Source: Ruminococcaceae bacterium R-25
GTDB lineage: Bacteria > Bacillota > Clostridia > Saccharofermentanales > Saccharofermentanaceae
Assembly (NCBI GenBank): GCA_003149065.1
Contig: QGFZ01000001.1
Span: 1,364,001 to 1,428,000, forward strand
Direction: 5' to 3'
DNA: 64,000 nt
In this document: positions 3,285 to 61,654 of the stretch, in pieces
Numbering within the stretch: the first letter of the stretch is position 1
Layout of the letters: each line of letters starts with the position of its first letter
The notes under the pieces: generated by a model
The model's database searches: none
What the model was told of the DNA's origin: nothing
What the model saw: the letters and a program-made list of their open reading frames with translations, nothing else
Position numbers and translations under genes: made by a program

Positions 3285-3455
3285 AATAAGCCTCCCTGGT
3301 GGATTCAATACATCAAAGCGATTATATCATCACTAAATGTCAAATCATATCAGATTAATATATATTAATATTGTGATTCACTAATTAGAAGACTTTTATA
3401 TTTATTAGACAGTGCCTAAAGCATCCACATTGAGAAATCATTTTCCGAATAATAA

Positions 3456-31560: not shown

Positions 31561-31652
31561 GAGCGTAAAGGGTGCAGTGAGGTTCAATTTTTCATACACT
31601 TGCAGAGCACATCTCCCACTAGTTAATCACTTGCAAAGCGCTGCTTCGGGCG

Positions 31653-31704
31653 AATGACTCAAACAGTGACTAAATTCCCTAAAATAGTCACTACTCCAGT
31701 CATT
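31653..31704. repeat. hairpin repeat, copy 1
   Basis: Left arm AATGACTCAAACAGTGACTA pairs with 31685-31704 at 16 of 20 positions, with a 12-base loop. Confidence 0.75.
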
Positions 31705-31714
31705 TTGGGGTGAA

Positions 31715-31766
31715 AATGACTCAAACAGTGACTCAAAACCCAAAATCAGTCACTATTTCAGTCATT
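31715..31766. repeat. hairpin repeat, copy 2
   Basis: The left arm is identical to copy 1 over 19 bases and pairs with 31748-31766 at 17 of 19 positions. The two copies start 62 bases apart. Confidence 0.75.
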
Positions 31767-31785
31767 CACCGAAAATGCTGCCCTC

Positions 31786-31869
31786 CAGTCGCTCACGAAA
31801 AGGCTCTCCTCTCCAATCACTCACGAAAAGGGGCGCCTCTTCAATCACCCATGAAAAAGGGCCGCCTCT
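31786..31869. repeat. three 28-bp tandem repeats
   Basis: Units start at 31786, 31814 and 31842 with the core CAATCACTCACGAAAAGG and small changes; the last runs into the terminator stem. Confidence 0.7.
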
Positions 31870-31884
31870 TTCGAGACAGCCCTT
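31853..31884 (-). terminator. terminator of zinc-ribbon membrane-protein gene
   Basis: On the minus strand AAGGGCTGTCTC pairs with GAGGCGGCCCTT (12 bp, two G-U) around GAAA, followed by TTTC. Confidence 0.82.
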
Positions 31885-31905: not shown

Positions 31906-32643
31906 TTAGATTACCGCGATAGCTTCTTCTACCGTTTCTGCATGTCCTTCCTTCAGTGCCTCAATAATGAGGGATACCTTCTGGCTCGTCTGATACTCTT
32001 CGGGAACGAGAGTCTCATATCTTCTCATGCTTGAGAGATTATCCTGATAGATATCGATCATTCTCTCATTCTTAAGACCCTGCTGGTATCTCTCGGATGC
32101 AATGCGGTTCATCATGTCAGCATTGCTGTTAAATGCGTCTCTCTTTTTTCTCGAGAGCCATAATCCCAGGAAGATGATCGCAAGTGCAACAATTATTGCA
32201 ACAAAATAACCACCGTAAATGTCAGTTACTGCATGGGATGTATATGTATCTATCTGTGCCTGAGTCATTGACGGCTGGGTGCCGGCACTCATAACAGTAG
32301 ATAACATAATTATCATCGAGATAATATAGATGACTATTCCTGCGCCGATTCCTCCAACCAGGAAAGGCCAGAAGAACTTCATGAGCGATCTCTTTTTATA
32401 GATCTGCTCATCTGTACGTGGGAACTCACTCTGCGGCTTGATCATTGTCTGGAGCTCTTCATTCTCGCTCAAAAGATCCCTGAACTTAGTCAGGTTCATG
32501 ATCAATACATGCTTTTCGGAATTGAACGGTCTCGCGGGACCTCCTGCCGGTGCTACATTTTCACCGTCTTTTGAAAAACCACACTTGGGACATTTCATAC
32601 CTGCAAACGGAAGAATGGTTCCACATGCTTTACAAGTATCCAT
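31906..32643 (-). CDS. zinc-ribbon membrane protein, unknown
   Basis: A 245-residue protein that begins with a CxxC-x(10)-CxxC zinc ribbon (CKACGTILPFAGMKCPKCG), then a soluble stretch, two membrane helices (about 87-114 and 140-163) and a helical cytoplasmic tail. Such ribbons usually stabilise the N-terminus of envelope or stress-response membrane proteins. I cannot assign a function. The ATG follows AGGAGG. It lies downstream of the MBL-GAF-GGDEF gene but a terminator separates them. Confidence 0.75.
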   Translation of the reverse strand: MDTCKACGTILPFAGMKCPKCGFSKDGENVAPAGGPARPFNSEKHVLIMNLTKFRDLLSENEELQTMIKPQSEFPRTDEQIYKKRSLMKFFWPFLVGGIGAGIVIYIISMIIMLSTVMSAGTQPSMTQAQIDTYTSHAVTDIYGGYFVAIIVALAIIFLGLWLSRKKRDAFNSNADMMNRIASERYQQGLKNERMIDIYQDNLSSMRRYETLVPEEYQTSQKVSLIIEALKEGHAETVEEAIAVI

Positions 32644-32759: not shown

Positions 32760-34472
32760 TTACTCGCAGCAGACTTTGTTTCTTCCCGTCTCTTTGGCGG
32801 TATAGAGCCTCTCGTCGGCATTGCTGATATTCTCTTCAATAGACTTAGAAGGATCGAAAAGACTGCACCCGAAACTCATCGTGCATCTTATTGTATTTCC
32901 GTCTGCTGTAATATCGGATTCCATGAGCTTTAACCTGATGTCTTCGGCTTTCTTTGCAGCACCTGTAAGATCGGTGTCACGCATTACCATTACGAACTCT
33001 TCGCCGCCCCATCTGTATACGCTGTCAGTCTCACCGCAGAAGGATTCCAGGAGCTCAGATGAGAAGATAAGGACATCGTCGCCTGCGTTATGACCATAAG
33101 TATCATTAACACGCTTAAACCTGTCGATGTCGCAGATGAATACCGACATGATCTTTCCTGATTCGGGAATGAGATATTCTCTGAAGCGCTTACCGAAATC
33201 GTAGTAGAAACCCATTCTGTTCTTAAGGCCTGTGAGCCTGTCGTGATGGGAGTCTTCCAAAAACGTTTCGGACTCTAAAGCGATACCGCATACGAGAGCA
33301 GCAAGAGAGAGTTTTTTCGGATCCTCATCTTCATCAAAGCCATTCTCGTCATTTTTGTTGATGAGCTGCAACGCACCGATGAAATCACCGTTAACGTCAG
33401 CCACAGGCAGAACGAGAACAGAATTTGTCTTATAGCCTGTCTGGATATCGATCTCGTTATTGAAATCAGGATCGTTATAAGGATCATTTGTAATGACCGT
33501 TGTTTTTTCTCTCAGTGCCTTTCCTACAAGACCTGAGTCGTCCGGGATCACGATCTTTTCGACGCCTGTTGCAGACATCGTCCAGATCTGATTCTTTCTC
33601 TTGTCCCATTTCCAGAAGCTTGCTCTGTCGGCATCAACTATCGTCTTGCCGAGCTCTGTAAGATATGAGAACAACAACTGGTGATCCTTGTTGTTATTCA
33701 TGCACATGTCTTTATAGAGACTGTCGGATATCGTAAAGATACCGTCCAGAAGTCTTGCTGTGTCCTGGACCATGAAAGCCCGCTTTTCGAGCGGCGCAAA
33801 TTCGGCACCTGTATCGCTCAATATTTCTCCGATCCTCTTCTCTTCATCCATATGCATGAGATATACATGAACGCCGCGTTCGACATAATACTTGATCTTA
33901 TCGTGGATATCTACGCAGTAAAGATGAACAGGCGACTTATAAGCAGATACTTCAGTGAATAAATACGAGCCGTCGGAAATGTATTTTTCATAAGGTATGA
34001 GAGTATTCGTATCGCCTGTATAGACAACTCTGTTGCCATCGACAGTAAGGCAGTAGCCGAAGCACTTTCCAGCAAGTTCCTCTGTATGCGTTGTCTGGAT
34101 AGAGCAGACAAGCCACTCCGCTTCAAGTTCTTCTGCACAGGTCAGATCGTACCAGGAATCATTGCAGCCTTCGATCCTCGAGAGAAGATAGAAAAGGTCT
34201 CCCTCTACTTCCTTTGAAGGAGCGACTATAGTAATAGGTGTCTGTACGGAAAACTGTAAAAGATCAACGAGCATCCCGATCCCGCTGACATGATCTCCAT
34301 GCGTATGGGTAACCAGCAGATAGATGTGGTCGAACAGCGTGAGATTCATGTCGTTTAACTTCTCGAAAGAACTCATCGGACAATCGATAAGGATCAGATT
34401 GCCGTTATCGATGAAAAAGGCGCTGTTATGCTCATCTGCGAATGCAGAACCTCTGCCTAAAAAAGTAAGCAT
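32760..34472 (-). CDS. MBL-GAF-GGDEF diguanylate cyclase fusion
   Basis: A 570-residue soluble protein joining three domains. The first (about 1-235) is a metallo-beta-lactamase fold hydrolase with the metal motif VTHTHGDHVSG (His56, His58, Asp60, His61) and later GDTNTLIPY and YLMHMD, in the RNase Z/phosphodiesterase style. Next comes a GAF sensor (about 255-400, with LVLPVADVNGDFIGALQLINK). Last is a GGDEF domain (about 405-570) with RLTGLKNRMGF and GGEEF at 489-493, expected to make c-di-GMP from two GTP. The inhibitory RxxD site is not conserved (GETD). It starts 3 bases after the adenylate cyclase stop with GGAGG upstream, so the two nucleotide-signal enzymes are co-expressed. Confidence 0.88.
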   Translation of the reverse strand: MLTFLGRGSAFADEHNSAFFIDNGNLILIDCPMSSFEKLNDMNLTLFDHIYLLVTHTHGDHVSGIGMLVDLLQFSVQTPITIVAPSKEVEGDLFYLLSRIEGCNDSWYDLTCAEELEAEWLVCSIQTTHTEELAGKCFGYCLTVDGNRVVYTGDTNTLIPYEKYISDGSYLFTEVSAYKSPVHLYCVDIHDKIKYYVERGVHVYLMHMDEEKRIGEILSDTGAEFAPLEKRAFMVQDTARLLDGIFTISDSLYKDMCMNNNKDHQLLFSYLTELGKTIVDADRASFWKWDKRKNQIWTMSATGVEKIVIPDDSGLVGKALREKTTVITNDPYNDPDFNNEIDIQTGYKTNSVLVLPVADVNGDFIGALQLINKNDENGFDEDEDPKKLSLAALVCGIALESETFLEDSHHDRLTGLKNRMGFYYDFGKRFREYLIPESGKIMSVFICDIDRFKRVNDTYGHNAGDDVLIFSSELLESFCGETDSVYRWGGEEFVMVMRDTDLTGAAKKAEDIRLKLMESDITADGNTIRCTMSFGCSLFDPSKSIEENISNADERLYTAKETGRNKVCCE

Positions 34473-34475
34473 CTT

Positions 34476-36272
34476 TTATTCCTCCGGTCCGATAAGACGT
34501 AAGATCTCAAATCCGTCCGCCTTACCCTTAAGTTTGATTGGCTTTTCCAAAGGCTCGTACTTCATACGGCCATTGAGTTTATCGATTACGGAACGGCTGA
34601 CATAAACCATGCCGCCCGGTGCGTTTGCTTCAAGTCTTGCAGATGTGTTTACGGTATCGCCTATCGCCGTATAGTCCATTCGTCTTTCTGAACCCATGTT
34701 GCCGACGACTGCAGGGCCATAGTTAACACCGACACCTACGTGGATCTCCTCATTGATATCAGCCTTAAGTTTTGCCGACAATTCATCTGCGCCCTTAACG
34801 ATATCGAGAGCTGCCATGCATGCGTGATAGACTGCTTCGTCATCAGCGATCGGCGCACCCCAGAAAGCCATCGTGGCGTCGCCAATGAACTTATCGAGCG
34901 TTCCGTGATATCTGTCAACGCAGGCACTCGTCATGGAAAGATACTGGTTAAGGATGTAAACGACTTCTTCAGGAGACAATCTCTCGGACATCGTGGTAAA
35001 GCCTCTGATATCAACGAAAAGGACTGCGATATCAACAGTCTTGCCGCCCAGTTTCAAGCTCTCTGTGCCTTCCTTTAAGATCTCGCTTACGACATTAGGT
35101 GCTACGTATCTCTCGAAAGTCTTAGTAACATTCTGTCTTGCGATAGCAGCACGTATATAGTTTCCACCGACGCTTACAATGAAAAGCATGAATAATCCGA
35201 ACGGGACCCAGAGAGCATGCGTGATATAGCCTAAAGAGAACAGCCATACACTGATTCCCAAAGCTAAGCCGATACCGGCAATCGCAACGGGAACAGTAAA
35301 TCTCAGTTTTCTGTTGTCAGCAAAAATATAGAACGCCATGCAGCAGATCCACAATACGCCGAGCTGGACATAATCCGGAGCGTAATTTTTATAGTTTCCG
35401 TCAAGCAGGCACTGGACGACATTTGCATGGTATTCAACGCCGAACATCATCTCAGCTTTTTCTATCGGCGTGATAAAGGAATCCTGAAGGCCAGGCGTAT
35501 AAGGTCCGATATAAACTATCTTTCCCGCATAAGCGTCAGGATGGATATTTCCGCCAATAAGATCGCTCAGATTATAGCCGTCGTAGTATCCGCCGGGTTT
35601 CTTGGAATACGTGACATAAAAGCGTCCTCTGGAATCAGTATCAGGCATCGTTATCGAAAAGCCGTTCTTCTCGGCATACATCCTTGCTGCCTGATACTGC
35701 ATCGAATAACAGCGTCCGCTGTCGGGCTCTACGTATAAAGTAGCGTGACGGATAACACCGTCTTCATCGTACATCGCATTGATAGAACCCTGCGTTGTGA
35801 CATTTTTCAATTCTTCATAAGGTTCTTCATAACCTAAGACGGCGTATTCATCCAATGTAACCTTGCCGCTTCCGAAAGAATACTGTGAACCGAATGTAGC
35901 AGTCGTGGCAGTGATAACGTTTCCGAGATTTTCAGCAGCTTTGGCAAGCCTTAAATCTCCTTCATCATCCATCCTGCCTGAGTACTGGATATCGATCGCG
36001 ACTACGGCAGGAGCATTATCAGGATCAGATCCCAAAACCTCCAGAGCACTGGCCATAACAGATCTGTCCCAGCTGCTGTATGGACCGAAATTTTTGATAT
36101 CTTTATCATCAATTCCGATAATGACGATGTCGTTATCAACATATATCTCACGCTGGTACAACAAGTCATTGACCCACAAGTCAGCAGTTCTAAGAACTCC
36201 GCTGGCGCATATCAAAGTAATCGCTGTTGCCAGCAACACGGCATAGATCAGATGTCTGGTACGTTTACTCAT
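34476..36272 (-). CDS. CHASE2-type adenylate cyclase
   Basis: A 598-residue membrane receptor cyclase. One helix (8-26) leads to an extracytoplasmic CHASE2 sensor domain (about 27-300, with VIIGIDDKDI, VVAIDIQYSG and GKIVYIGPYTPGLQD), then three helices (302-318, 325-345, 350-372) and a class III cyclase domain (about 410-590). Metal-binding Asp421 (LFVDIRGFT) and Asp465 (FIGDATMAFWGAP), adenine-selecting Lys461 and Asp539 region (DYTAIGDTVN), and Asn542/Arg546 are present, so ATP to cAMP conversion is expected. The order CHASE2-3TM-cyclase is known in cyanobacteria and proteobacteria, often beside FecR-domain proteins, as here. Confidence 0.92.
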   Translation of the reverse strand: MSKRTRHLIYAVLLATAITLICASGVLRTADLWVNDLLYQREIYVDNDIVIIGIDDKDIKNFGPYSSWDRSVMASALEVLGSDPDNAPAVVAIDIQYSGRMDDEGDLRLAKAAENLGNVITATTATFGSQYSFGSGKVTLDEYAVLGYEEPYEELKNVTTQGSINAMYDEDGVIRHATLYVEPDSGRCYSMQYQAARMYAEKNGFSITMPDTDSRGRFYVTYSKKPGGYYDGYNLSDLIGGNIHPDAYAGKIVYIGPYTPGLQDSFITPIEKAEMMFGVEYHANVVQCLLDGNYKNYAPDYVQLGVLWICCMAFYIFADNRKLRFTVPVAIAGIGLALGISVWLFSLGYITHALWVPFGLFMLFIVSVGGNYIRAAIARQNVTKTFERYVAPNVVSEILKEGTESLKLGGKTVDIAVLFVDIRGFTTMSERLSPEEVVYILNQYLSMTSACVDRYHGTLDKFIGDATMAFWGAPIADDEAVYHACMAALDIVKGADELSAKLKADINEEIHVGVGVNYGPAVVGNMGSERRMDYTAIGDTVNTSARLEANAPGGMVYVSRSVIDKLNGRMKYEPLEKPIKLKGKADGFEILRLIGPEE

Positions 36273-36300
36273 AAATCATCATATATGGTGCTTTCAACTG

Positions 36301-37599
36301 TTAATCATCGTTAACAGCTGCACCCCAGCTGTAAGAGAAATAAGTTGTGCCATTGTATTCAAATCCTATAGAGTCCGGGCCTTGGAGTTCTGAAAGAATA
36401 ACCCATCTTCCGTTAACATAGCCCTTGTATCTTCCGTCAGAAGCTCCTAATCCTTCGTTAGCGCAGATATAGACCATATGGTCACCATATTCGACGCCCC
36501 ACCAATCGGTTTCTTCATAACCGTCAGGAGGAGTAGGTTCCTTTTCATCTTCATCGTCATCGCCAGATCCCTCTGTAGAAGGATCTGATGACGGATCCGT
36601 TGAAGGATCTGTCTGTGATGAAGGATCAGTCGTTGTTGTAGGAGTAGGAGTAGCTGTTGCCTTCGGCTTAGGCTTCGGTGTTGCTGTAGGCTTAGGTGTC
36701 GATGTAGGTAGCGGACTTGGGGTCGGAGAATCAGTCGGTACCGGCGAAGGTGTCGGAGTAGAAGTATCCTCCGGTGCATCTGTAGGTGTAGGCTCAGGTG
36801 TCGGAGAAGGAGTAGGAGATGCAAGACCTTTTAAAACCTTCTTGAGCTTATCCTCATTCCAGCCCGTATGCTCGCTGATCCTCTTCATGAGTGATTCATC
36901 ATCAGCAAGAGCAGCTAAATTGAAGTTGCCCAATTCATCCACAGGAACATAATCTAACTCAAACTGAACACTATCCTCAGGATTTTCGTCATCTAAAAGA
37001 TAGACCTTGACTCTTTTGCCTGCTTCAACTCTGGCAGTCTTTGTATATCCAGTCGTTTTGTTTGTAGCAGAAACTTCAACTACGCCATCCGTAACGATCA
37101 GGGTTTCTATATTCTCATCAGTCTCATCGTAATAAGCGATACCGGACGTACCGCGGATTCCGGCAGTCATAGTAGATGTCTTGATCTCGAAAGCCTCATC
37201 GTCTTTGAGCTTTTCGGTAACATTGAAGAATACGGCACCTTTGGTGAGCTTAAGTTCCAGCTTCTTGCCGTTCTTCATAAACTCCGCTCTGCTGTCATTC
37301 TGGAGCGTGATGATCTTCGTGTCATCAAGGCCAACGGTAGCAAGTCCGTCATCACCTGTATTCAGGGCATCGCCTGACTGGAAACGAAGATTATCGGAAA
37401 CAGGCTTTGAGCCACCCCTTGAATCTTCGATATTAACTGTTCCTTCAGCATGAAGGAGTCTCATCGTTGTAGCGAGGTATTTACTGCGCGAAAAAACGAC
37501 GCAAACAACAACGACGGCTGCAACTACAACCGCCGCTGAAACAGCCATAATAATCTTCTTTTCACGTGTGAGATTCATAAACTTATCGATAATGCTCAT
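36301..37599 (-). CDS. FecR-like membrane-anchored protein A
   Basis: A 432-residue protein with a short cytoplasmic start, one membrane helix (15-36), an outside FecR-like domain (about 48-190: LRFQSGDALNTGDDGLATVGLDD, LKLTKGAVFFNVTEKL, TSTMTAGIRGTSG), a conserved TGWNEDKLKK helix and a Pro/Thr/Ser-rich stalk of about 110 residues. It ends in a roughly 70-residue module (WWGVEYGDHMVYICA... YKGYVNGRWVILSEL). The start at 37599 has GGGGAGG upstream; a longer frame runs into the relic gene behind it. It precedes the CHASE2 cyclase by 28 bases. FecR domains sense or relay signals at the envelope; a sensory partner role for the cyclase is inferred. Confidence 0.82.
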   Translation of the reverse strand: MSIIDKFMNLTREKKIIMAVSAAVVVAAVVVVCVVFSRSKYLATTMRLLHAEGTVNIEDSRGGSKPVSDNLRFQSGDALNTGDDGLATVGLDDTKIITLQNDSRAEFMKNGKKLELKLTKGAVFFNVTEKLKDDEAFEIKTSTMTAGIRGTSGIAYYDETDENIETLIVTDGVVEVSATNKTTGYTKTARVEAGKRVKVYLLDDENPEDSVQFELDYVPVDELGNFNLAALADDESLMKRISEHTGWNEDKLKKVLKGLASPTPSPTPEPTPTDAPEDTSTPTPSPVPTDSPTPSPLPTSTPKPTATPKPKPKATATPTPTTTTDPSSQTDPSTDPSSDPSTEGSGDDDEDEKEPTPPDGYEETDWWGVEYGDHMVYICANEGLGASDGRYKGYVNGRWVILSELQGPDSIGFEYNGTTYFSYSWGAAVNDD

Positions 37600-37678
37600 A
37601 AGATCTGCCTCCCCTGCCCGAGTGGTTTGATGATCTTTTTTAATTATAACATATATGAGAAAGCAATTACGGTAACGG

Positions 37679-37786
37679 TCATTGACGGCAACGCAGCACA
37701 GCAACAACTACAACCACTACTGCTACAGAGCAGATAATGATTTGTTTAAGGAAGGATAAACTCATAAAGTTGATAACTGACATCAT
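37679..37786 (-). pseudogene. 5' relic of a FecR-like paralogue
   Basis: A 35-codon frame starting MMSVINFMSLSFLKQIIICS and ending in a poly-valine helix and a stop codon matches the first 30 residues of paralogue B at protein and DNA level, including its upstream sequence and a GGAG site. Everything after the membrane helix is missing. It is a truncated extra copy between paralogues A and B; it could still encode a tiny membrane peptide. Confidence 0.75.
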
Positions 37787-37864
37787 ACGACTCCTATAAA
37801 TCTTCTGTTGCTTCAATTCATTCCATATGACAAGGTTATCTTAATTACCTGCACGACAGAAAAA

Positions 37865-39349
37865 TCAATCAGCATAGTACGTTATCTCTTTATCACCATA
37901 GTTAAAAGCATATACAATCGGACTGACACTCTTATAATGCAAAGGTACCCATTTTCCGTTTATCGGAGCTGAATATGTATAAGTTTCTCCGCCATTATCA
38001 TTTGGAACTTTATAGTAGCGAATGTAAACAGGGTGCCCATTATAAGTTGTTCCCCATACTCTTCCTTCACCATACTTTCCGTAAGTACCAACGCCATCGC
38101 TTACAAAGTCAGCATCAGTAGGAACATAAGAATAATCAGGTTCAACAGGCGTCGGAATAGGAGTAGACGTAGGTGTAGGTGTGTTTGTAGGTGTATTTGT
38201 TGCTGTCGGTCTGGTAGTCGGCGTAATTGTTGCTGTCGGCCTGGTTGTCGGCCTGGTTGTCACTGTCGGAGTGGCAGTCGGCGTACTTGTCGCTGTCGGG
38301 CTGGTAGTTGGTGTATTAGTAGCCGTTGGCCTTGGAGAAGGCGTCGGTGATGTGGTTGGTCGCCTTGTTGCCGTCGGCTTTGGTTTAGCCATAGGAGACG
38401 GTGAGATAGTCGGCTCCGGTGTCGGAGTCGGAGAAGGTGTCGGTGTGGACGGCGGTGTAGGTGTCGCAGGAGGCAATGTTGGTTTCGGTGTGATCGTCGG
38501 AGTCGAAGACGGTGTTACCGTAGGAATAGGCGTAGGAGAAAGCGTTACTATAGGCGTAGGTGCCTTCTGTCTTTCTTCTGCATCCTTGATTGCATCTTCA
38601 AGACCGCCCTGGTCCCAACCGGTGTCATTAGCGATTCGTTTTACGAGTTTCTTATCCTTACCGATATTTCTGAGAGCAAAATCATCAAGATCTCTTGCGT
38701 TGACTTTGTTATTGCTGAACTCTACGGAATCTGTCTTTCTGTCATCATAATAAGTGACCTGCGCTTCTTCACCGCCGGAAACTTCCATTGTTTTCGTTTC
38801 ACCTGTGATCTGGTTTGTAGCCGATAATGCAACTACTCCGTCTGTAACGACAATTGTCTCTTTGCCATCATCTTCGACGGCATAATAGACAATGCCTGAC
38901 GTGCCTCTGATACCGGCAGTCATCGTAGATGTCTTTATCTCAAATGTCTCATCGGGTTTTAACTTTTCGGTGACGTTGAAAAATACGGCGCCCTTAGTCA
39001 GTTTAAGTTCAAGGTGTTTTCCGCTTTTCGTAAACTCAGCTCTGCTGTCGTTCTGAAGAGTGATTATCTTTGTCTCATCAAGGCCGACCGAAGCAATACC
39101 GTCTGCTCCTGTGTTCATGGCATCGCCGGACTGGAAACGCATATTACCCTTAACAGGTCTGGAATTACCATTGGAATCTTCGATATTTACAGTACCTTCA
39201 ACATTAAGAAGCCTCATCGTAGTAGCAGTGTACTTGTTGCGGTTCAGTACAATTCCAATCACAACAGCAACTACAACCACTACTGTTACAGAGCAGATAA
39301 TGATTTGTTTAAGGCGGGATAAACTCATAAATTTGTCAACTAACTTCAT
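37865..39349 (-). CDS. FecR-like membrane-anchored protein B
   Basis: A 494-residue paralogue of protein A. A membrane helix (about 15-35) precedes the FecR-like domain (MRFQSGDAMNTGADGIASVGLDE, LKLTKGAVFFNVTEKL, TSTMTAGIRGTSG) and the DTGWDQGGLEDAIKD helix. A stalk of about 150 residues is built of Thr-Pro, Ser-Pro and Pro-Thr-Ala-Thr repeats, long enough to cross the cell wall. The C-terminal module (WGTTYNGHPVYIRYYKV... APINGKWVPLHYK... ITYYAD) is shared with protein A. The ATG at 39349 has AGAGG upstream. It follows paralogue C by 31 bases. Confidence 0.82.
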   Translation of the reverse strand: MKLVDKFMSLSRLKQIIICSVTVVVVVAVVIGIVLNRNKYTATTMRLLNVEGTVNIEDSNGNSRPVKGNMRFQSGDAMNTGADGIASVGLDETKIITLQNDSRAEFTKSGKHLELKLTKGAVFFNVTEKLKPDETFEIKTSTMTAGIRGTSGIVYYAVEDDGKETIVVTDGVVALSATNQITGETKTMEVSGGEEAQVTYYDDRKTDSVEFSNNKVNARDLDDFALRNIGKDKKLVKRIANDTGWDQGGLEDAIKDAEERQKAPTPIVTLSPTPIPTVTPSSTPTITPKPTLPPATPTPPSTPTPSPTPTPEPTISPSPMAKPKPTATRRPTTSPTPSPRPTATNTPTTSPTATSTPTATPTVTTRPTTRPTATITPTTRPTATNTPTNTPTPTSTPIPTPVEPDYSYVPTDADFVSDGVGTYGKYGEGRVWGTTYNGHPVYIRYYKVPNDNGGETYTYSAPINGKWVPLHYKSVSPIVYAFNYGDKEITYYAD

Positions 39350-39380
39350 AAGACACCTCTGGATTTTCTGTTGCTTCAAT

Positions 39381-39962
39381 TTATTTCATTGCCGGAGTCT
39401 GTATAATAGTCGGAGAGGATACCGGTGCCGACGTCGGAGAAATCTCCTCAGTTGTTTCCTCAGTCGGCACCGGTGTAGGTGTCTCGGACGGACCCTGAGC
39501 ATTCTCATTCTCAAGATCCATATTGGCTTTTTTAAGTTTGTCTTCATCCCAACCTGTGTATGCCGCTACTCTGTTCTTGAGATCAAATCCGTCAGGATTT
39601 TCTTCAGTAACGGGATCAAGTTCGAACTCGACACTATCTTCGGTTCTATCGTTATTCAGATAGACTTTTATCTCCCTGCCGCCGTCGGCATTGTCGAAGC
39701 AGATCATTTCAGAAATGCCACGAATGCCGGCGGTCATTGTAGAGGGCTTTATCTCAAAGGTTTGGTCTGCCTTGAGTTTTTCTGTAACGTTGAAAAATAC
39801 TGTTCTGTCTTCCACATCAAGAAGACTCATAGTTGTATACGGATACTTATTACGGGAAATAACAATGCAGACTGCAACGGCAGCGATAACCGCTACCAGA
39901 ACAACAGGCATTATTAATTTCATATTGGGAGATAAGGATTTAATGCTATTTACTAAACCCAT
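39381..39962 (-). CDS. FecR-like paralogue C with internal deletions
   Basis: A 193-residue, intact frame that has lost most of the FecR core. The N-terminal helix (about 15-36) and SRNKYPYTTMSLLDVE are like paralogue B. The sequence then jumps to VFFNVTEKLKADQTFEIK, skipping about 70 residues that carry the FQSGDA and GLDDTK strands in the others. A second loss removes the strands after GIRGIS. The YTGWDEDKLKKA helix and a short Pro/Thr tail remain; the C-terminal module is absent. Both deletions keep the frame, so a product is possible, but the fold is probably broken. It is likely a decaying gene or a recombination reservoir. Confidence 0.75.
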   Translation of the reverse strand: MGLVNSIKSLSPNMKLIMPVVLVAVIAAVAVCIVISRNKYPYTTMSLLDVEDRTVFFNVTEKLKADQTFEIKPSTMTAGIRGISEMICFDNADGGREIKVYLNNDRTEDSVEFELDPVTEENPDGFDLKNRVAAYTGWDEDKLKKANMDLENENAQGPSETPTPVPTEETTEEISPTSAPVSSPTIIQTPAMK

Positions 39963-40132
39963 ATGAATCCGCCTTTCCGTAACAGGTAATGGAGCGGTAT
40001 GAATTCATACCATAGCAGGATATCGAAAAGGCCTAAAACATGCTACCCAAATTTAACGCAACTTTTTTGTGCGTTTTGCTGCAACACCGGAGTTCTCATT
40101 TTATTATTTAGAAATCAGTTAGCGTAGACATA

Positions 40133-40162
40133 ACAAGGCTGCCTCGTATGAGACAGCCTTGT
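40133..40162 (-). terminator. hairpin after FecR-like gene D
   Basis: ACAAGGCTG pairs with CAGCCTTGT plus an inner CTC/GAG around a 4-base loop; the U-tail on the minus strand is weak. Confidence 0.6.
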
Positions 40163-40191
40163 AAAGTTATTACTTTATAAATGACCAGCTA

Positions 40192-41484
40192 TTAATTAGT
40201 GGTATCTCCGTCAACTGTTGATCCGCCGCCACCTTGCGTAGACTCATTGCTGCCGCCACCGCCGCCTTGCGTAGGTTCACCGCCGCCGCCCTGCGTAGGC
40301 TCACCGCCACCGCCTTGCGTAGGCTCACCGCCGCCACCTTGCGTAGGTTCACCACCACCGCCTTGCGTAGGCTCACCGCCACCGCCTTGCGTAGGCTCAC
40401 CGCCGCCGCCTTGCGTAGGCTCACCGCCGCCACCGGGATTTTCGCTGCCACTGGTACCATTAGTTGGCTTAGTAGTTCCGCCGGAACTGCCACCGCCGCT
40501 CGGCTTATTGTTATTATTATTCTTCGGCTTAGGTGTTGCTGTTGCCTTGGGCTTCGGTGTAGCTGTAGGATCCGGTTTATCGGTATTTGTAGGCGCCGAA
40601 GTAGGTGTAGGTGTGTTTCCCTTTGTTTCATCTGTCTCTGATGATTCAGAAGTATCCTCAGACTCTGAAGACTCAGATGATTCTGTAGGTGCAGGTGTTA
40701 CCTGTTTTGTTAAGATCGCATTGATGAGTGATTTGAGCTTATCTCTGTCCCAACCTGTGTATTCACATACCTTGGTAAGGAGTCTCTCGTTGTTACCGAG
40801 CATCTTGAGTGTGAAATCTTCGAGCTCATCTTCAGCAATATCTTTGACATCCAATTCGATGGTGTCATGCTCCTTGGTCGAATCAGAATAAAGATATACG
40901 GTGATCCTCTGTCCGCCGGATACTTCGGCATATTTTCTCTCACCTGTCTCAGGATTTACTGCTGAGATAATCAGTTTTCCGTCCGTGACGGTCAGGTACT
41001 CATTGCCGTCTACATCAAGGCCGAAATAACCGGAAGTACCCTTGATTCCTGCTGTCATTGTGGAAGTCTTGATCTCAAAGATCTCGCCATCCTTAAGTTT
41101 TTCAGTTACTTCGAAGAACATGCCGCCCTTGGTAAGCTTGATGCCAAGCTGCTTGTTGACCTTGGAAAACTCGACGCGGCTGTCAGGCTGAAGAGTAACA
41201 AACTTTGTATCGTCGAGACTTACTGTTGCAAGACCGTCAAGGCCTGTAAACAAAGCTTCGCCTGATTCGAATCTTGCATTCTTGCTGATAGGCTTAAGCT
41301 TTCCGCCTTCTTTTTCGATTTTTACGGTGCCCTCTGCCCTGACAAGCTTCATGGTCTTGGCAAGATAGCTGCTGCGGTTAAAGATAATAACGCAGACTAT
41401 TACAATGATTATTGCCACACCCAGAAGCGCATAAAGAAGCTTCATACCGAACGTCAGATTTTTCGGCAAGTTGATAGAAATCAT
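40192..41484 (-). CDS. FecR-like membrane-anchored protein D with Gly-rich repeat
   Basis: A 430-residue protein with one membrane helix (about 14-36), a FecR-like domain (ARFESGEALFTGLDGLATVSLDD, IKLTKGGMFFEVTEKL, TSTMTAGIKGTSG), the EYTGWDRDKLKSLIN helix, a Ser/Glu/Thr then Lys/Pro/Thr-rich linker, and a C-terminal stalk of seven exact GGGGEPTQ octads plus degenerate copies. It lacks the C-terminal module of A and B. It is the first gene of the array on the minus strand, with AAGGAAGGG before the ATG. A hairpin separates it from paralogue C, so it may be its own unit. Repeat number probably varies between strains. Confidence 0.82.
   Translation of the reverse strand: MISINLPKNLTFGMKLLYALLGVAIIIVIVCVIIFNRSSYLAKTMKLVRAEGTVKIEKEGGKLKPISKNARFESGEALFTGLDGLATVSLDDTKFVTLQPDSRVEFSKVNKQLGIKLTKGGMFFEVTEKLKDGEIFEIKTSTMTAGIKGTSGYFGLDVDGNEYLTVTDGKLIISAVNPETGERKYAEVSGGQRITVYLYSDSTKEHDTIELDVKDIAEDELEDFTLKMLGNNERLLTKVCEYTGWDRDKLKSLINAILTKQVTPAPTESSESSESEDTSESSETDETKGNTPTPTSAPTNTDKPDPTATPKPKATATPKPKNNNNNKPSGGGSSGGTTKPTNGTSGSENPGGGGEPTQGGGGEPTQGGGGEPTQGGGGEPTQGGGGEPTQGGGGEPTQGGGGEPTQGGGGGSNESTQGGGGSTVDGDTTN
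40264..40437. repeat. 24-bp coding minisatellite (GGGGEPTQ octads)
   Basis: Seven near-identical 24-base units in frame inside FecR-like gene D, differing only at third codon positions. Being a multiple of three, gain or loss of units keeps the frame. Confidence 0.9.
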
Positions 41485-41618
41485 AAATAATCCCTTCCTT
41501 TATAACTGTTCCTAAATGAGAAATTCTATCAGTAAAGAAAATTATATCAAGTATTTTTGCCGAAAACTATTCCTAACACCCCGTTTTAGAACGATTTTGT
41601 CTTTCCGGCGCACGAAAA

Positions 41619-52328: not shown

Positions 52329-53309
52329 TCAACCCTCGAAACGATTGAATCTTACGCGTTCGTCAAAAGACTTTTTCGAAGGTGCATGGAAGTCATCTGT
52401 TGCCTTTCCTACCGGCAGTATGCAGACAACATCGTAGTTTTCGGGAACACCGAGAACTTCAGCGATCTTATCGCAGATACGGTCATCATCAGTGATGTGG
52501 CCTTCGTACCAGCAGCTCTGGTATCCGAGTTCCACGATCGCAAGAAGCATATTCTCGATTGCAGCAGAATAATCCTGCGTTGCAAAACACTTGTCGCGGT
52601 ATGCGTTGATCCTCTGTGAGAGAACTACGATCATGGCAGGCGCAGTCTGAGCTACCGGAGGATCGATAAGCCCCTTGATCTTATCCAATGTTTCCTCGTC
52701 ATCTACAACGATAAGGTCTGTCGTCTGCTTGTTGCATCCTGAAGGTGCATCAATGCCGCAGCGGGCGATAGTCTCCAGATCTTTTCTGGGGACCTTTTCA
52801 TCAGAGAACTTGCCTCTGTAGCTGTGCCTTGCACCAATCGTAGAGATAGCGCTCTTAAGGTTCATTACGTAGATCTGGCAGGGGTTTGCCTCATCCCAGT
52901 AATCAGCGAGGACTTCCAATTCCCTGAATCCTACGCTCTTATAGAATTCGTTTGTGATGTCATAATCTTCATACATGCCGGATCTGACTGTCTTTACCTG
53001 CATGAACGAAAAGCCCTTCTGAACTGCATAATCCTTGGCAGCAGCGAAAAGCCTTCTTCCGTAGCCGTTTCTGTGGAAATCTTTCTTAACGCCCATTACG
53101 GCAAGTTCCATAGTAGCGTCACCTGTCTGCTTAAGGCAGAGGAATCCTGCAGGGACATCATTTTCAAAAGCGGCCCAGAAAGGCTGGTCTGCCGATTCCC
53201 TGATATACTGCTCTCTGCTCTCTTCCACTTCGAACCATTCGGTAAGGGCTTCCAATACCTCTCTGGCGATCTTCTGCTTTTCATTTTTGTCTTCGATAAA
53301 ACGGATCAT
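52329..53309 (-). CDS. GNAT-nitroreductase fusion protein
   Basis: A 326-residue, two-domain protein. Residues 1-150 are a GNAT acetyltransferase (ELAVMGVKKDFHRNGYGRRLFAAAKDYA, then TNEFYKSVGFRELE). Residues 155-326 are an FMN-dependent nitroreductase (KVPRKDLETIARCGIDAPSGCNKQTTDLIVV, then YSAAIENMLLAIVELGYQSCWYEG and DVVCILPVGKA). There is one start, with AGGAG upstream, and no frame break, so this is a true fusion. Both halves act on small molecules; one enzyme may reduce and acetylate the same toxic compound, as in detoxification. That role is inference. Confidence 0.88.
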   Translation of the reverse strand: MIRFIEDKNEKQKIAREVLEALTEWFEVEESREQYIRESADQPFWAAFENDVPAGFLCLKQTGDATMELAVMGVKKDFHRNGYGRRLFAAAKDYAVQKGFSFMQVKTVRSGMYEDYDITNEFYKSVGFRELEVLADYWDEANPCQIYVMNLKSAISTIGARHSYRGKFSDEKVPRKDLETIARCGIDAPSGCNKQTTDLIVVDDEETLDKIKGLIDPPVAQTAPAMIVVLSQRINAYRDKCFATQDYSAAIENMLLAIVELGYQSCWYEGHITDDDRICDKIAEVLGVPENYDVVCILPVGKATDDFHAPSKKSFDERVRFNRFEG

Positions 53310-55178: not shown

Positions 55179-57719
55179 TTACTTAACGATCTCGATATTA
55201 TTCACACTCTTATGTGACCAGTCATTTGAGAGGTCCATATTCTGCCAGTCTGATCTGTGAGCGCTGAAGCTTATCGTCAGCGTATCACCCTTGGCAAGAG
55301 AGCCGCTTCCTACAGTGATGGTAAGACATGTATCGCGGTCTTCACCGGTAGCTGCAGAATATGTTCCCTTAACCTTATCGGTCAAGGCAGTATATTTGCC
55401 TGTTGAAGAATTGGTTGCTGCGTGATAGCAGTCGAAAACCATATCCCCGCCGTCTTTTGTGAAGTAATAGTTGATCTTGATCTTCGACAGATCTACCGTG
55501 GAACTGCCGTTATTTGTGATCTCTATCGTACCTGCTATCGCATTTGCGGAAGAGCCGTTATTGTCGTAATTCATCTTGATGCTCAAGTCACCTGTTGAAG
55601 CTGATCCCGAGCCGCCTGCAGGCTGTGTCTGCGTAGTAGAAGAACCTGTTTCCTTTGCAGGATCTGCACCGCTTACGGATTCACCAGAGCCCGTGCCTTC
55701 TTTGTCAGGCAGGGTTCCGAAAACAAGCTTGCCGTCATCTAAAAGAACTGCGCCATTACTATATGAAAAGTCATTCTTGTTATCCCATGCGCCGTTAGGA
55801 CTTGTCATCCTTATCTGGATCTCGGATTTATACTGCGACTGGCCGCCCGGTCTTAAGTTGCCGTCGTCGAAAACAACGGACAGATAGTAAATATGGTTTT
55901 CTTCGTTCCAAACCTTAAGGCCGTCTACTCTTCCCGACTGCATGTAGTTTGTGGAGATCTTTACTCCGGATGCGTCGCCGCCTGCCTTATAGATCTCGGA
56001 AAGGTCTACGAAATATCTGAATTCGAGCTTGTCAGCAATTCTTGCAGGCCAGGCGGTCTTGTTATAGATCAAAGCCTTTATCTCGGCAAAATCATTGCCC
56101 TGTACATTAAGGCTGCACTCAGCTGAGTATTCGTCATTCGGCACCTCTTCCACAGCACCGAAATCAATAAGTGTCTTGCCGTGGTATTTCGAATACATGG
56201 CTGCCATAAGGCCCGTAAAACCGGCATTGTAGTCGCATGCGACTTCGTTCTTGTTATAGTCACTTACGGTATCCGTATAACCGTCAGAAGCATCAGGACC
56301 GCCTACTAAAGCGCCGTAGAGAGTATGCCTTGCTTCACCCGGTTCATTCATGTTATCGCAGTAAGAACCCTGGCTTGTTCTGTGATGGGGATGCGCAGGA
56401 GGATTTTCGCCGAAACCTACGACATAAGATCTGCCTGAAGAACCCAAAGCATAGTTTGCCTGGGAGACAGCGAAATCCCAATACACGGAAACTTTATCCT
56501 TGGGGCATCCGTCCCACCTGCTGTATACGGTTGCGACAAACGATGTTGTCGTTGCATATCTTAAAGAACCCCACTGGTCGAGCCAGGCAAGGCCTTTGGG
56601 TGAATATGTGATCCTCTTTCCGTCAGATGTGCCGCATGACCAGTAATCCAAGTGTTTCTGAACTTCATCCTTATATGCTTTCTCGCCTGTTATCTTTGCG
56701 AGCATGACAGCTGCTCCGATATGGACGTCATCCCAGCAGAGCGCCCAGTCGAAATCGTGGCCGGCCTTGGTAAAACTTGTTTTCGCATTCGTAAGATACT
56801 TGCTGTCATCAGTTGCAAGATAGAGCCAACAGCCTGCCCATGAGAGCTCATCGTAAAAACCGCTCCATGAATTGTAAAAGCCGTTGGCAGCGGTATAACC
56901 GGAATCACTTTTCGTGGAATCCGCGAAAGCATAAAGGCTCTTTGCGTGATCAAGGCAGAGCTTCGAATAGTCTTTGTCGGTATCCTTGAAAACGATGGAA
57001 GCAACAGCCAGAGCTGCAGCCGCTTCGCCTACTACCGCAGAACCGGGATTATCCTTTGTGACCTTATAGGAAGGCCTGTTCATGGTCATGACCTCGCAAG
57101 GTCCCCACCAGGAGTGATCGGCATTTCCGTCACCTACCTGATAGTAATAAACTTCAGGCTCCGGATGACACTTGATAAGGTAATCTGTGACCCACTTGAT
57201 ATCGCCTAAAATATATTCCAGCTGGCCGCTCTGTTCGTAAGCAGCTTTGTCTTCATAAACAGACCAGCCCAGGATTGCAGCAGAATAAGCCATCGGGAGA
57301 TTAAACTTAACGTTGTCTCCCGCGTCGTACCATCCGCCTGTCAGATCGATATTGTTATCGGCGCCGTCATTAAGTGCGGAATCGCCTCTCCAGTTGCATC
57401 TGGTATATTCGGGAAGCTTGCCGCTTCTCTGCAATTCATAAAAGAGGATGGCTTTCTGAAGGGCTTCGCCGTAGTTATAGTCACCTATCCCTTCAATGCC
57501 CTCATAACCCTTGCCCTTTTCGGTGAGGTCCTTTGTGGAATGCGTTCCAGATGACGCGCCGTTAAAACCGCCCGAAGCATAAGTCTCAGAACTCTCTGTG
57601 ACGGAAGTTTCCGTATTATCTGATGGATCGCCTGATTCTATGTTTTCGCCTTTATTGCAGGCAGTTAAAAGTATTGCTAATGCAAGGACTAACGCTATGG
57701 GTCTAAGAGCTTTTTTCAT
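55179..57719 (-). CDS. lipoprotein GH9 cellulase with CBM3c and CBM3
   Basis: An 846-residue surface-tethered endoglucanase. The lipobox is LLTAC (Cys21), followed by a Ser/Thr/Gly-rich tether. The GH9 domain (about 78-520) starts with [20 protein letters not shown] and has the catalytic Asp132 and Asp135 ([12 protein letters not shown]), HPHHRTSQ (443-450) and Glu492 ([12 protein letters not shown]). It is followed by a CBM3c-like module (about 532-672), a Gly/Ser/Thr linker (673-709) and a second CBM3 (710-846, [20 protein letters not shown]). GH9-CBM3c is the known Theme B layout of processive endoglucanases; the second CBM3 would bind crystalline cellulose. GGAGGGG precedes the ATG. No dockerin. 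Confidence 0.94.
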
Positions 57720-59902: not shown

Positions 59903-61654
59903 ATGAACGGACCTGCTCCCATAGACGATTACAGACTGAGATTTGACGACTTTTCCAATGCTGACATTTTTGCGAAAAAGCACCGCCTCCCTGCCATGGG
60001 CTGGAACAGCTGGAATGCTTTCGGGAGCGGCAATACGGAAGAACTTACCAAGGCAATGGTCCTTAAGATAAAGGAATTGGAGCTCGATAAGCTCGGTTAC
60101 AAGTACGTCGTCTTAGATGACGGATGCTATCACCCGGAGCGCGTTAACGGCCACCTTCAGGCAGATAAAATCAAGTTCCCTTCAGGCTTTAAAGCAATGG
60201 CTGATTTTGTTCATGAGAACGGCCTTAAATTCGGCATGTATAACGACATCGGAACCAGGCTCTGTTCAGGCGCAGAAGTCGGCATCTATGGATATGAAAA
60301 GACCGACTGCGAAGACTACATCAAATGGGATATCGATTTCATAAAAGTCGATAACTGTTATTACATGTGGGACAATGCGACTTTCGCTGATCCCGAAAAT
60401 GCAAAATACTCATTTGCGCCGAATATCAGATCGATATATTTTGCAGGAAAGACTTATCCTGCTGCAGGTTATGCTGACATTACAGGAACATGCGCCTCTG
60501 TAAAAAGTGATTATGTAACTTCCATCGGCACATTTGATGGAACGGCTCCTGATCACAGCCCTGTAGGATCAAGGAGCAGCGAACTCGTATTTGAAGTTGA
60601 GATTGACGAGACAGGTGAATACGAACTCACAGTAACTTACGCTTCAGGAAAAAATGAAGGTGTCGGAAACTGGCTTCAGGTTGCAGTTAACGACGACGTT
60701 GTTTTCGATGAGATGCTTCCTGATACCGGATCACCAGATACATTTAAAGAGTCTGCTCCTATCAAGTTAAGATTCCCTACACCAGGTTTCAATAAGATCC
60801 GCATAATGAATCACAGGAGACAGGAAAATACTCTTCATTCTTATACCGAGATCAGGCGCGAACTTGAGAACGCCGGTGACCGCGATATCGTCTTTTCTAT
60901 CTGCGAATGGGGAAAGACACAGCCTCAGAACTGGGGACACAAGGTCGGCGATTCCTGGCGCATCTTAAATGACATTACTTTCCAGGTAGGTGCCGACGGC
61001 AATCACGGAACGGCAGCCTGGGAGTGCGACTACACTACATCGATCACTTCGCAGTACAACAAGGCAGTAATAATGGATGAGTTCTCAGGCCTCGGCATAG
61101 GCTGGAACGACCCTGATATGCTGGTTATCGGAATGGACGGCATCAATAACATTATGTGCCGCTCTCACATGGCTATGTGGTGCATGCTGAACTCTCCCCT
61201 CATGCTCGGCGTTGACTTAAGAAGAGTAAATAAAGGCGATGAGATCTATAACATCATTGCAAACAAAGACCTGATTGCTTTAGATCAGGATCCTCTCGGC
61301 GTGCAGGCAAAAAGAATATTTACGACATATGAGTGCTCCGAACCTGACAAGGATTATATCCGTGACAACAACAGGATCGATATCCTCGCCAAGCCGCTTT
61401 CTGACGGCGGCATCGCACTCGGTTTCTTTAACTTAAGTCAGGAGCAAAAAGAAGTCCCGTCGATCAGCGTTAATGAGATATTAGATAAGATCGGCAGGAA
61501 GACAGTAAATAAAGATCTTTTCGCAAACGCGGAAGAATATAAGATCAAAGACCTTTATACCGGCGAAGAAACGATCTCAAGAAGCAAGATTTTTGATGCC
61601 GGCTCTCTTGAAGGTTGTGATAGTAAAGTTATAAGGATCACGCCCGTTTCATGA
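59903..61654 (+). CDS. GH27-like alpha-galactosidase with CBM-like insert
   Basis: A 583-residue cytoplasmic glycosidase. The barrel starts MGWNSWNAFG (32-41) and continues YKYVVLDDGCY, LKFGMYNDIG and DFIKVDNC with nucleophile Asp150. After that a beta-rich stretch of about 125 residues (about 180-305: SRSSELVFEVEIDETGEYELTVTYASG, NWLQVAVNDDVVF, FNKIRIMN) interrupts the barrel like a carbohydrate-binding module. The barrel resumes with DIVFSICEWGKTQPQNW and the presumed acid/base Asp357 (SWRILNDI), then GLGIGWNDPDMLVIG. A C-terminal beta domain ends the chain. The start has GAAGGAG. GH27 enzymes remove alpha-galactosyl (or N-acetylgalactosaminyl, or beta-L-arabinopyranosyl) units; exact substrate unknown. 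Confidence 0.88.
   Translation: MNGPAPIDDYRLRFDDFSNADIFAKKHRLPAMGWNSWNAFGSGNTEELTKAMVLKIKELELDKLGYKYVVLDDGCYHPERVNGHLQADKIKFPSGFKAMADFVHENGLKFGMYNDIGTRLCSGAEVGIYGYEKTDCEDYIKWDIDFIKVDNCYYMWDNATFADPENAKYSFAPNIRSIYFAGKTYPAAGYADITGTCASVKSDYVTSIGTFDGTAPDHSPVGSRSSELVFEVEIDETGEYELTVTYASGKNEGVGNWLQVAVNDDVVFDEMLPDTGSPDTFKESAPIKLRFPTPGFNKIRIMNHRRQENTLHSYTEIRRELENAGDRDIVFSICEWGKTQPQNWGHKVGDSWRILNDITFQVGADGNHGTAAWECDYTTSITSQYNKAVIMDEFSGLGIGWNDPDMLVIGMDGINNIMCRSHMAMWCMLNSPLMLGVDLRRVNKGDEIYNIIANKDLIALDQDPLGVQAKRIFTTYECSEPDKDYIRDNNRIDILAKPLSDGGIALGFFNLSQEQKEVPSISVNEILDKIGRKTVNKDLFANAEEYKIKDLYTGEETISRSKIFDAGSLEGCDSKVIRITPVS

Follow-up and report, generated by a model that had tools for sequence, protein, structure and literature searches.

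The 64,000-nucleotide stretch of DNA analyzed here, referred to as the window, comes from the 3.07-Mb genome of Ruminococcaceae bacterium R-25 (contig QGFZ01000001.1; G000:C1:1364001-1428000) and carries a minus-strand cassette of signaling genes that encode FecR-like proteins, a CHASE2 class III adenylate cyclase, and a protein combining metallo-β-lactamase (MBL), GAF, and GGDEF domains. The products of this cassette could constitute a membrane-to-cytoplasm relay in which an extracellular cue would be converted first into cyclic AMP (cAMP) and then into cyclic di-GMP (c-di-GMP).

Organization of the cassette

In the order of transcription, the cassette consists of FecR-like genes D, C, and B, a relic, FecR-like gene A, the CHASE2 cyclase gene, and the MBL-GAF-GGDEF gene (Table 1). 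All cassette open reading frames were recovered on the minus strand at the coordinates first given for them, and their ends confirm the spacing noted in an earlier, sequence-only reading of the window, with 28 nucleotides between FecR gene A and the cyclase gene and 3 nucleotides between the latter and the MBL-GAF-GGDEF gene. The identities assigned to these two enzymes in that reading were likewise borne out by Pfam domains scoring above their cut-offs. Its count of four FecR-like paralogs and a relic was accurate for the relic, the translation of which runs into a stop, and for three full genes, D, B, and A, the only ones in the genome to pass the Pfam FecR cut-off, whereas the fourth gene, C, looks truncated, with about 50 residues of the FecR domain left, and is probably decaying. 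The open frames of genes A and B extend over 36301-37707 and 37865-39379, respectively, and their likely starts, at 37599 and 39349, are internal methionines chosen by eye. Throughout the genome, the matches to FecR (three), CHASE2 (one), class III cyclase (one), and GAF_2 (one) all fall inside the cassette.

Shine-Dalgarno-like stretches precede FecR genes A and D and the GGDEF gene, and a candidate cassette promoter lies 5' of gene D, recognized by consensus match, such promoter-like sites numbering 30 in the scanned stretch versus a shuffle mean of 20.7. From gene D through to the GGDEF gene, all terminator-like matches on the minus strand fall inside reading frames. The spacing, the promoter-like site, and the terminator positions are compatible with a single operon, and the cassette may be co-transcribed.

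Table 1. Features of the cassette and its flanks, in window coordinates
Feature	Coordinates	Strand	Description
Promoter-like site, candidate cassette promoter, 5' of gene D	41523..41550	-	TTGATA-16-TAGAAT, extended TG; consensus match only
FecR-like gene D, 430 aa	40192..41484	-	Anchor, FecR domain, GGGGEPTQ-repeat tail; Pfam FecR 42.8 bits
FecR-like gene C, 193 aa	39381..39962	-	No Pfam FecR match; partial match to locus FecR profile, residues 48-97
FecR-like gene B, 494 aa from Met	37865..39349	-	Anchor, FecR domain, Pro/Thr stalk, C-terminal tip domain
Relic, N-terminal membrane anchor of a further FecR copy, between B and A	37697..37826	-	86% identical to 39260-39389
FecR-like gene A, 432 aa from Met, adjoining the cyclase gene	36301..37599	-	Anchor, FecR domain, stalk, tip domain
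CHASE2-class III adenylate cyclase, 598 aa	34476..36272	-	CHASE2 131.5 bits (cut-off 26.3), Guanylate_cyc 87.9 bits (cut-off 21.9)
MBL-GAF-GGDEF protein, 570 aa	32760..34472	-	Pfam Lactamase_B_2, GAF_2, and GGDEF
MBL domain, class II phosphodiesterase-like, HxHxDH	33789..34472 (boundary approximate)	-	PDB profile matches 7fct, 7t28/7u2s/7u2r
GAF domain, cyclic-nucleotide-binding type	33267..33683 (boundary approximate)	-	20/20 PDB matches to cyclic-nucleotide GAF proteins or PmGH
GGDEF diguanylate cyclase domain	32775..33251	-	GGEEF, without RxxD inhibitory site; Pfam
Downstream membrane protein with zinc ribbon	31906..32643	-	Weak Pfam matches; homologs in close relatives

In the AlphaFold model of FecR A, a membrane helix and a β-rich FecR domain are accompanied by a small helical portion, a Pro/Thr stalk that is disordered, and a confidently predicted β tip. 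Foldseek comparison matched the fold of this model to FecR/PupR-type anti-sigma ectodomains (E values from 2.5e-06 to 3.7e-05) and also retrieved a "cell surface anchoring domain" (5ix9; E = 0.036), while NCBIfam yielded matches, far under the cut-offs, to leptospiral adhesins and LapA retention modules. The tip domain of FecR A occupies about 70 residues past the stalk (36301-36531), and no convincing sequence relative of it was found in the PDB, the six matches obtained (E values from 0.054 to 0.83) being taken as chance. Such a tip is present in 50 of 102 FecR-like proteins; within the window, A and B carry it and C and D do not.

Conservation of the cassette in relatives

Related loci were collected by scanning one genome per species and retaining the best 80 of 88 loci, 76 of which have a called cyclase. 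Many of the relatives are Saccharofermentans sp. or Ruminococcaceae bacterium genomes from rumen, omasum, horse feces, and deer. A FecR gene is located directly upstream of the cyclase gene in 59 of the 76 loci (median gap of 14 nucleotides), and in 50 loci the next gene downstream of the cyclase encodes this MBL domain (median gap of 2 nucleotides). Within five genes of the cyclase, a GAF-linked GGDEF protein is encoded in 52 loci and a GAF-HD-GYP protein, the HD-GYP label denoting Pfam HD_5 matches plus a GYP motif recognized by eye, in another 13, so that 65 of the 76 loci contain a GAF-linked c-di-GMP enzyme. Such enzymes account for 65 of the 635 near genes but for none of the 353 farther genes. 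Given these counts, the cassette is not a chance assembly, and the adjacency proposed from the window holds in most loci of the relatives.

Among the 11 loci without a GAF-linked enzyme, five are on contigs of three or four reading frames (L037, L077, L098, L109, and L110), and six are on longer contigs (L066, L079, L083, L094, L097, and L114). MBL and GAF-GGDEF are encoded by separate genes in L065, L074, and L084, and the reading frame is broken within GAF in L086. A stand-alone gene for a second branch of MBL occurs nearby in all 13 GAF-HD-GYP loci as well as in L087 and L103, where the cyclase was not called; in L093, this second branch accompanies GAF-GGDEF.

The number of FecR genes varies, with one copy in 39 relative loci, two in 11, and three in 11. 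In the FecR tree, sequences from the first and last places of the array in the close relatives of the window cluster by position rather than by species, indicating that the array is older than these species; gene B of the window has no supported placement. Because its predicted fold matches anti-sigma ectodomains, FecR might be an anti-sigma factor, as in Gram-negative iron signaling, and lie next to the cyclase incidentally. We consider this very unlikely in view of the recurrent position of FecR directly upstream of the cyclase and the confinement of all three genomic FecR matches to the cassette. Furthermore, no sigma-factor family, including the extracytoplasmic function (ECF) sigma factors that would be the partners of an anti-sigma FecR, and no TonB receptor was detected among the ten cassette and neighboring proteins scanned.

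To avoid the bias of the locus scan, a sample of 391 genomes was drawn evenly from the class. CHASE2 was detected in 19 of these, including 13 outside the genus. In the latter 13, the stretch within five genes of CHASE2 contains a gene for FecR in 10 cases, for a GAF-linked c-di-GMP enzyme in 7 cases, and for an MBL hydrolase in 3 cases. Within the genus, a cyclase at least 50% identical to that of the window is present in 49 of 70 genomes. The 41 genus genomes searched for both proteins include 28 with this cyclase, all of which have MBL-GAF-GGDEF (with an in-frame stop in G013), and 13 without it, 8 of which lack MBL-GAF-GGDEF as well (Fisher's exact test, 1.3e-5; the Fisher values given here ignore shared ancestry). 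Conserved adjacency and co-occurrence across genomes, together with the intact catalytic residues described below, support the functional link that the sequence-only reading had advanced between FecR and the two second-messenger enzymes.

Domain composition and a possible relay from cAMP to c-di-GMP

The CHASE2 domain of the cyclase is flanked on both sides by hydrophobic helices. Residues D421, K461, D465, T535, N542, and R546 are identical in all 88 aligned sequences, an alignment that takes in 13 sequences of a paralogous cyclase; we take these residues to be the two metal-binding aspartates, the adenine-type lysine, the Thr/Asp position, and the transition-state asparagine and arginine. 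Judging by this conservation, the catalytic domain probably makes cAMP. The paralogous CHASE2 cyclase, with an identity of 36 to 40% and found in genus members at 13 loci (L126-L138), comes after a protein of 932 to 1797 amino acids in 11 of the 13, and a FecR of about 303 amino acids is encoded in the stretch analyzed around it in 8 of the 13; these loci represent a second FecR-type cyclase system. At four other loci (L105, L140, L142, and L152), NHL β-propeller proteins bearing an S-layer or copper-amine-oxidase domain at the N terminus, possible extracellular sensors, are encoded near FecR and the CHASE2 cyclase.

The MBL-GAF-GGDEF protein has no stretch resembling a membrane helix and hence is expected to be cytosolic, so that its signal must arrive inside the cell. 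Its structural model has a predicted TM-score (pTM) of 0.46, because of which the domain placement was left unused; Foldseek matched the model mainly to GGDEF structures and, lower, to MBLBt2 and 1zkp (MBL part) and to PmGH (GAF part). This protein was aligned in sets of 32 and 53 sequences. The GGEEF motif is intact in 52 of 53 sequences, the remaining one being masked. Only one of the 53 sequences contains RxxD, making product inhibition at that site unlikely.

The GAF_2 score of the window protein (29.4 bits) is barely above the cut-off of 28.6. When a profile built from 12 homologs was compared with the PDB, all 20 matches with E values of at most 0.1 were to CyaB1, PDE2A, PDE5A, PDE6, PDE10A, or PmGH, a GAF-HD-GYP protein, and the window sequence used singly produced 20 matches of the same kinds. 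The GAF domains of the distant GAF-HD-GYP proteins behaved similarly, with 21 matches, all to cyclic-nucleotide GAF proteins or PmGH. Because MBL-GAF-GGDEF itself is the only GAF_2 match of its genome, the GAF half of Escherichia coli DgcP (a GAF-GGDEF protein; GAF_2, 41.2 bits) served as the sole control; it gave two matches, to a NifA protein and the HCN1 channel (E values of 0.058 and 0.08), and none to a cyclic-nucleotide GAF. Residues N372, K373, F379, and D384 of the window GAF are identical in 53 of 53 sequences. The domain shares with CyaB1 (1ykd) and the GAF domains of mammalian PDE2, PDE5, PDE6, and PDE10 the N-K-F-D positions as well as the ADR and Y-x-D-P-x-F-N stretches, but differs from these proteins in that its output is c-di-GMP. 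From this family placement, cAMP is the presumed ligand, and the direction of the GGDEF response is likewise a prediction.

The putative metal ligands of the MBL domain, H56, H58, D60, H61, H129, D154, and H207, are kept in 53 of 53 sequences. When its profile was compared with the PDB, MBLBt2 (7fct) ranked first (4.3e-31) and three structures of Apyc1, 7t28, 7u2s, and 7u2r, second (3.1e-14, 4.9e-10, and 1.1e-08), followed by an arylsulfatase (8.8e-06) and the RNase Z relatives ELAC1 (3zwf; 1.2e-04) and 1y44 (3.1e-04). The second MBL branch, in turn, is closest to 1zkp (1.2e-18) and 6kns (8.9e-18), the latter of which we take to be YhfI. Passages of PMC9117128 assign Apyc1 to the class II phosphodiesterases, with cyclic mononucleotides as its substrates, and ascribe to YhfI a preference for cAMP and cGMP. 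The window MBL domain, which shares with Apyc1 and YhfI the MBL fold, the HxHxDH site, and sequence similarity, resembles Apyc1 in sequence and, by family, may hydrolyze cAMP. It differs from these proteins in being fused to signaling domains. The occupation of the same slot beside the cyclase by two MBL branches also points, indirectly, to a role of this slot in cAMP removal; this argument is weaker than the direct similarity to Apyc1. A different kind of MBL fused to GGDEF, the oxygen-sensing di-iron MBL (ODP), was considered and ruled out, the motif being HxHxDH in 53 of 53 sequences versus HxExDH, which is presumably the iron site of ODP.

The resemblance to Apyc1, an anti-Pycsar protein, and the matches of PADLOC PycC models to the cyclase domain (best, 6.8e-31) could suggest a Pycsar-type or other anti-phage cyclic-nucleotide system, but this interpretation is barely credible and was rejected. 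The PycC matches are limited to the cyclase domain, in which the lysine and threonine that we presume to be of the adenine type are invariant (88 of 88); neither TIR nor any other PADLOC effector was matched by FecR A or MBL-GAF-GGDEF, no effector family was found in the ten cassette and neighboring proteins scanned, and the chromosomal context is conserved across the genus.

The gene order, its conservation, the integrity of the catalytic residues, and the family placement of the domains are observed, and on this basis we propose, with moderate confidence, a serial relay. The membrane-anchored FecR proteins, exposed on Pro/Thr-rich stalks, would act outside the cell on the CHASE2 domain; the class III domain, the catalytic residues of which are intact, would make cAMP; the GAF domain would bind cAMP and switch the GGDEF domain, setting the level of c-di-GMP; and the Apyc1-like MBL domain of the same chain would hydrolyze cAMP, so that the relay resets. 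The earlier suggestion that one outside signal sets both cAMP and c-di-GMP is retained here insofar as the two activities appear to be linked, but the arrangement is likely serial, with a cAMP eraser on the chain that makes c-di-GMP, rather than parallel.

From the cyclase, cAMP probably also reaches tandem cyclic-nucleotide-binding proteins, whose genes adjoin the cassette in a few relatives. The cNMP_binding proteins examined are tandem-domain proteins of about 300 amino acids with no recognized DNA-binding domain, and the window genome has only two (L120:5218-6120 and L119:4889-5812), both tandem, the gene of one of which starts 169 nucleotides after that of an 805-amino-acid HD_5-domain protein. 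At least two cNMP_binding matches are present in 50 of 57 genus genomes with any class III cyclase versus none of 8 without (Fisher's exact test, 1.3e-6; 65 genomes). Such a tandem gene immediately precedes the FecR array in L041, L044, L046, and L104, follows the paralogous cyclase in G031, and is next to MBL-GAF-GGDEF in G021. Near other CHASE2 cyclases, a cNMP-binding domain is fused to DUF2225 (L145:11798-12922) and to a SpoIIE-type phosphatase (L146:4790-5986), possibly representing other cAMP outputs.

A number of observations weigh against the serial relay. In the class-wide sample, the difference between near and far genes (7 of 111 versus 0 of 48) is not significant (p = 0.10), and a tandem cNMP-binding gene is found within five genes in only 4 of the 76 loci. 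As for c-di-GMP receptors, no PilZ match was obtained in the genome, with 5 of 14 controls positive, and no c-di-GMP-I riboswitch was matched in the genome, a result rendered uninformative by the equal lack of matches in the control genomes. Relative to the NKFDE motif, which we take to be that of cyclic-nucleotide GAF domains, the window GAF has one extra residue before D, and the final E is not conserved. In addition, GAF profiles do not separate cAMP from cGMP, and MBL-GAF-GGDEF is present in the absence of this cyclase in 5 of the 41 genus genomes searched (G021, G031, G034, G035, and G040), which means that the protein does not need this particular cyclase. The latter two points would fit a model in which both cyclases answer one cue independently and are only co-expressed, with the GAF domain sensing cGMP, redox, or some other ligand. 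We regard such parallel outputs as unlikely, since a cytosolic protein must receive its signal inside the cell, its GAF domain matches solely cyclic-nucleotide GAF proteins and PmGH, and the same cyclase family adjoins GAF-coupled enzymes of opposite c-di-GMP sign. Each of the five genomes has another class III cyclase match, and two of them, G035 and G040, are incomplete. In G031 (L122) and G040 (L124), FecR and the cyclase are gone from the same gene order and MBL-GAF-GGDEF stays, and in G034 (L123), a FecR gene stays beside MBL-GAF-GGDEF and the cyclase is gone.

The remaining contrary evidence concerns the eraser. The MBL domain does not pass the Pfam Apyc1 model (PF23023; 27 bits, cut-off of 50), on which a stand-alone MBL relative in L084 scores 33 bits, and gives a weak match to RNase Z (TIGR02651; 39 bits, cut-off of 292.95). 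For its closest PDB entry, MBLBt2, we know of no function, and a literature search on 7FCT returned no relevant paper. For the second branch, the match to RNase Z (2.7e-15) falls only slightly short of the best ones, and the similarity to Apyc1 is remote (0.0026). These data leave room for an MBL domain that is regulatory or an RNase Z-like hydrolase, in which case the protein would be a cAMP-gated diguanylate cyclase with no built-in eraser. This, too, we judge unlikely, and slightly more so than parallel outputs: the window MBL domain scores better against Apyc1 than against either RNase Z relative, its metal site is invariant, and the other branch has among its best matches the presumed YhfI.

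Precedents, a possible partner exchange, and neighboring genes

Most work treats cAMP and c-di-GMP separately and, to our knowledge, cAMP signaling in Clostridia is little explored. Precedents exist for the single steps of the proposed relay, namely, Lcd1, Tlr0485, Apyc1/YhfI, and the Campylobacterota clusters. According to passages of PMC8846402, Lcd1 of Leptospira interrogans is a cAMP-activated GAF-GGDEF diguanylate cyclase, and Tlr0485 of Thermosynechococcus is a cAMP-activated GAF-HD-GYP protein. As in Lcd1, the GAF domain of the window protein is N-terminal to GGDEF, and cAMP is the proposed activator of c-di-GMP synthesis; the defining arrangement of the Lcd1 type, a GAF of the cyclic-nucleotide subfamily next to an intact GGDEF, appears to be present. 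Unlike Lcd1, the window protein begins with a fused phosphodiesterase-like MBL domain, and its gene comes after those for FecR proteins and a CHASE2 cyclase. Tlr0485, which also couples a cAMP-type GAF to a c-di-GMP enzyme, is the counterpart of the GAF-HD-GYP proteins of the 13 distant loci, whereas the output of the window protein would be synthesis by GGDEF, not breakdown by HD-GYP.

In Campylobacterota, a CHASE2-adenylate cyclase is clustered with a cAMP phosphodiesterase, FecR, and tetratricopeptide repeat (TPR) genes, and the same source, in the portion consulted, also refers to clusters that combine ECF-sensor genes with genes for transmembrane enzymes of cAMP or c-di-GMP (PMC9239204). 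The window cassette is similar in bringing together FecR, a CHASE2 cyclase, and, by similarity only, a phosphodiesterase. It differs in that the phosphodiesterase-like domain is fused to GAF-GGDEF and in that no TPR family was detected in the ten cassette and neighboring proteins scanned; for the four-gene cluster of Campylobacterota, the consulted text of PMC9239204 names no GAF-linked c-di-GMP enzyme. In the Burkholderia BiofilmReg operon, a FecR (LysM) protein likewise accompanies a CHASE2 receptor, but this is a histidine kinase with a response regulator output instead of cAMP or c-di-GMP (PMC5192318, in the portion consulted). The sequence-only reading, which took pairs of FecR and CHASE2 cyclase as known, was aware of no description of several stalked FecR-like proteins with a c-di-GMP synthase in a Clostridia-type genome. 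Clusters of FecR, CHASE2 cyclase, and phosphodiesterase are in print for Campylobacterota (passages of PMC9239204); neither the MBL-GAF-GGDEF fusion nor an exchange between GGDEF and HD-GYP beside a CHASE2 cyclase was found in searches of the open-licence PubMed Central literature.

In some other Clostridia, where the same cyclase family is combined with a stand-alone MBL and GAF-HD-GYP, the coupling would drive the breakdown of c-di-GMP. In a quick tree of 74 cyclases, built with a midpoint root and no bootstrap, the cyclases paired with fused or split MBL and GAF-GGDEF fall into one set of 36 (support of 94, not starred), which takes in four rows whose neighbors differ or are cut off and is nested among cyclases that have GAF-HD-GYP as their partner. 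Two further GGDEF cases, L093 and L148, stand apart, and over the whole tree the GGDEF label requires six changes. The topology suggests that the HD-GYP pairing is older than the GGDEF pairing, with a root that is not secure. We tentatively propose, as a scenario somewhat short of even probability, that a single chain reads cAMP, makes c-di-GMP, and destroys cAMP, and that the CHASE2-cyclase/FecR module exchanged GAF-HD-GYP for MBL-GAF-GGDEF, thereby giving the response the opposite sign.

Hard-wiring cAMP and c-di-GMP to each other through synthesis, sensing, and proposed erasing, a conserved cassette of this kind would offer a compact test bed for messenger-to-messenger conversion, and an example in which partner exchange may have inverted the sign of the c-di-GMP response. 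It also predicts cAMP phosphodiesterase activity for the MBL branch fused to signaling domains, as well as cAMP as the ligand of GAF-GGDEF and GAF-HD-GYP proteins that lack an assigned one.

Downstream of the cassette, the gene for the zinc-ribbon membrane protein is often found directly 3' of the GGDEF gene in close relatives. The adjoining intergenic stretch 31640-31880 contains two copies of a 52-nucleotide repeat and a 28-nucleotide tandem repeat, and its minus strand folds at -109 kcal/mol (z = -8.3). It looks like a structured REP/BIME-like (repetitive extragenic palindromic/bacterial interspersed mosaic) element, the core pattern of which had no exact match across 156 loci. Elsewhere in the window, GNAT acetyltransferase and nitroreductase domains share one reading frame (52329-53309), and two cellulases of glycoside hydrolase family 9 (GH9), a GH3 enzyme, and a melibiase are encoded at 1047-3308, 6744-9314, 55179-57719, and 59903-61654, indicating that the organism is probably a plant-fiber degrader.

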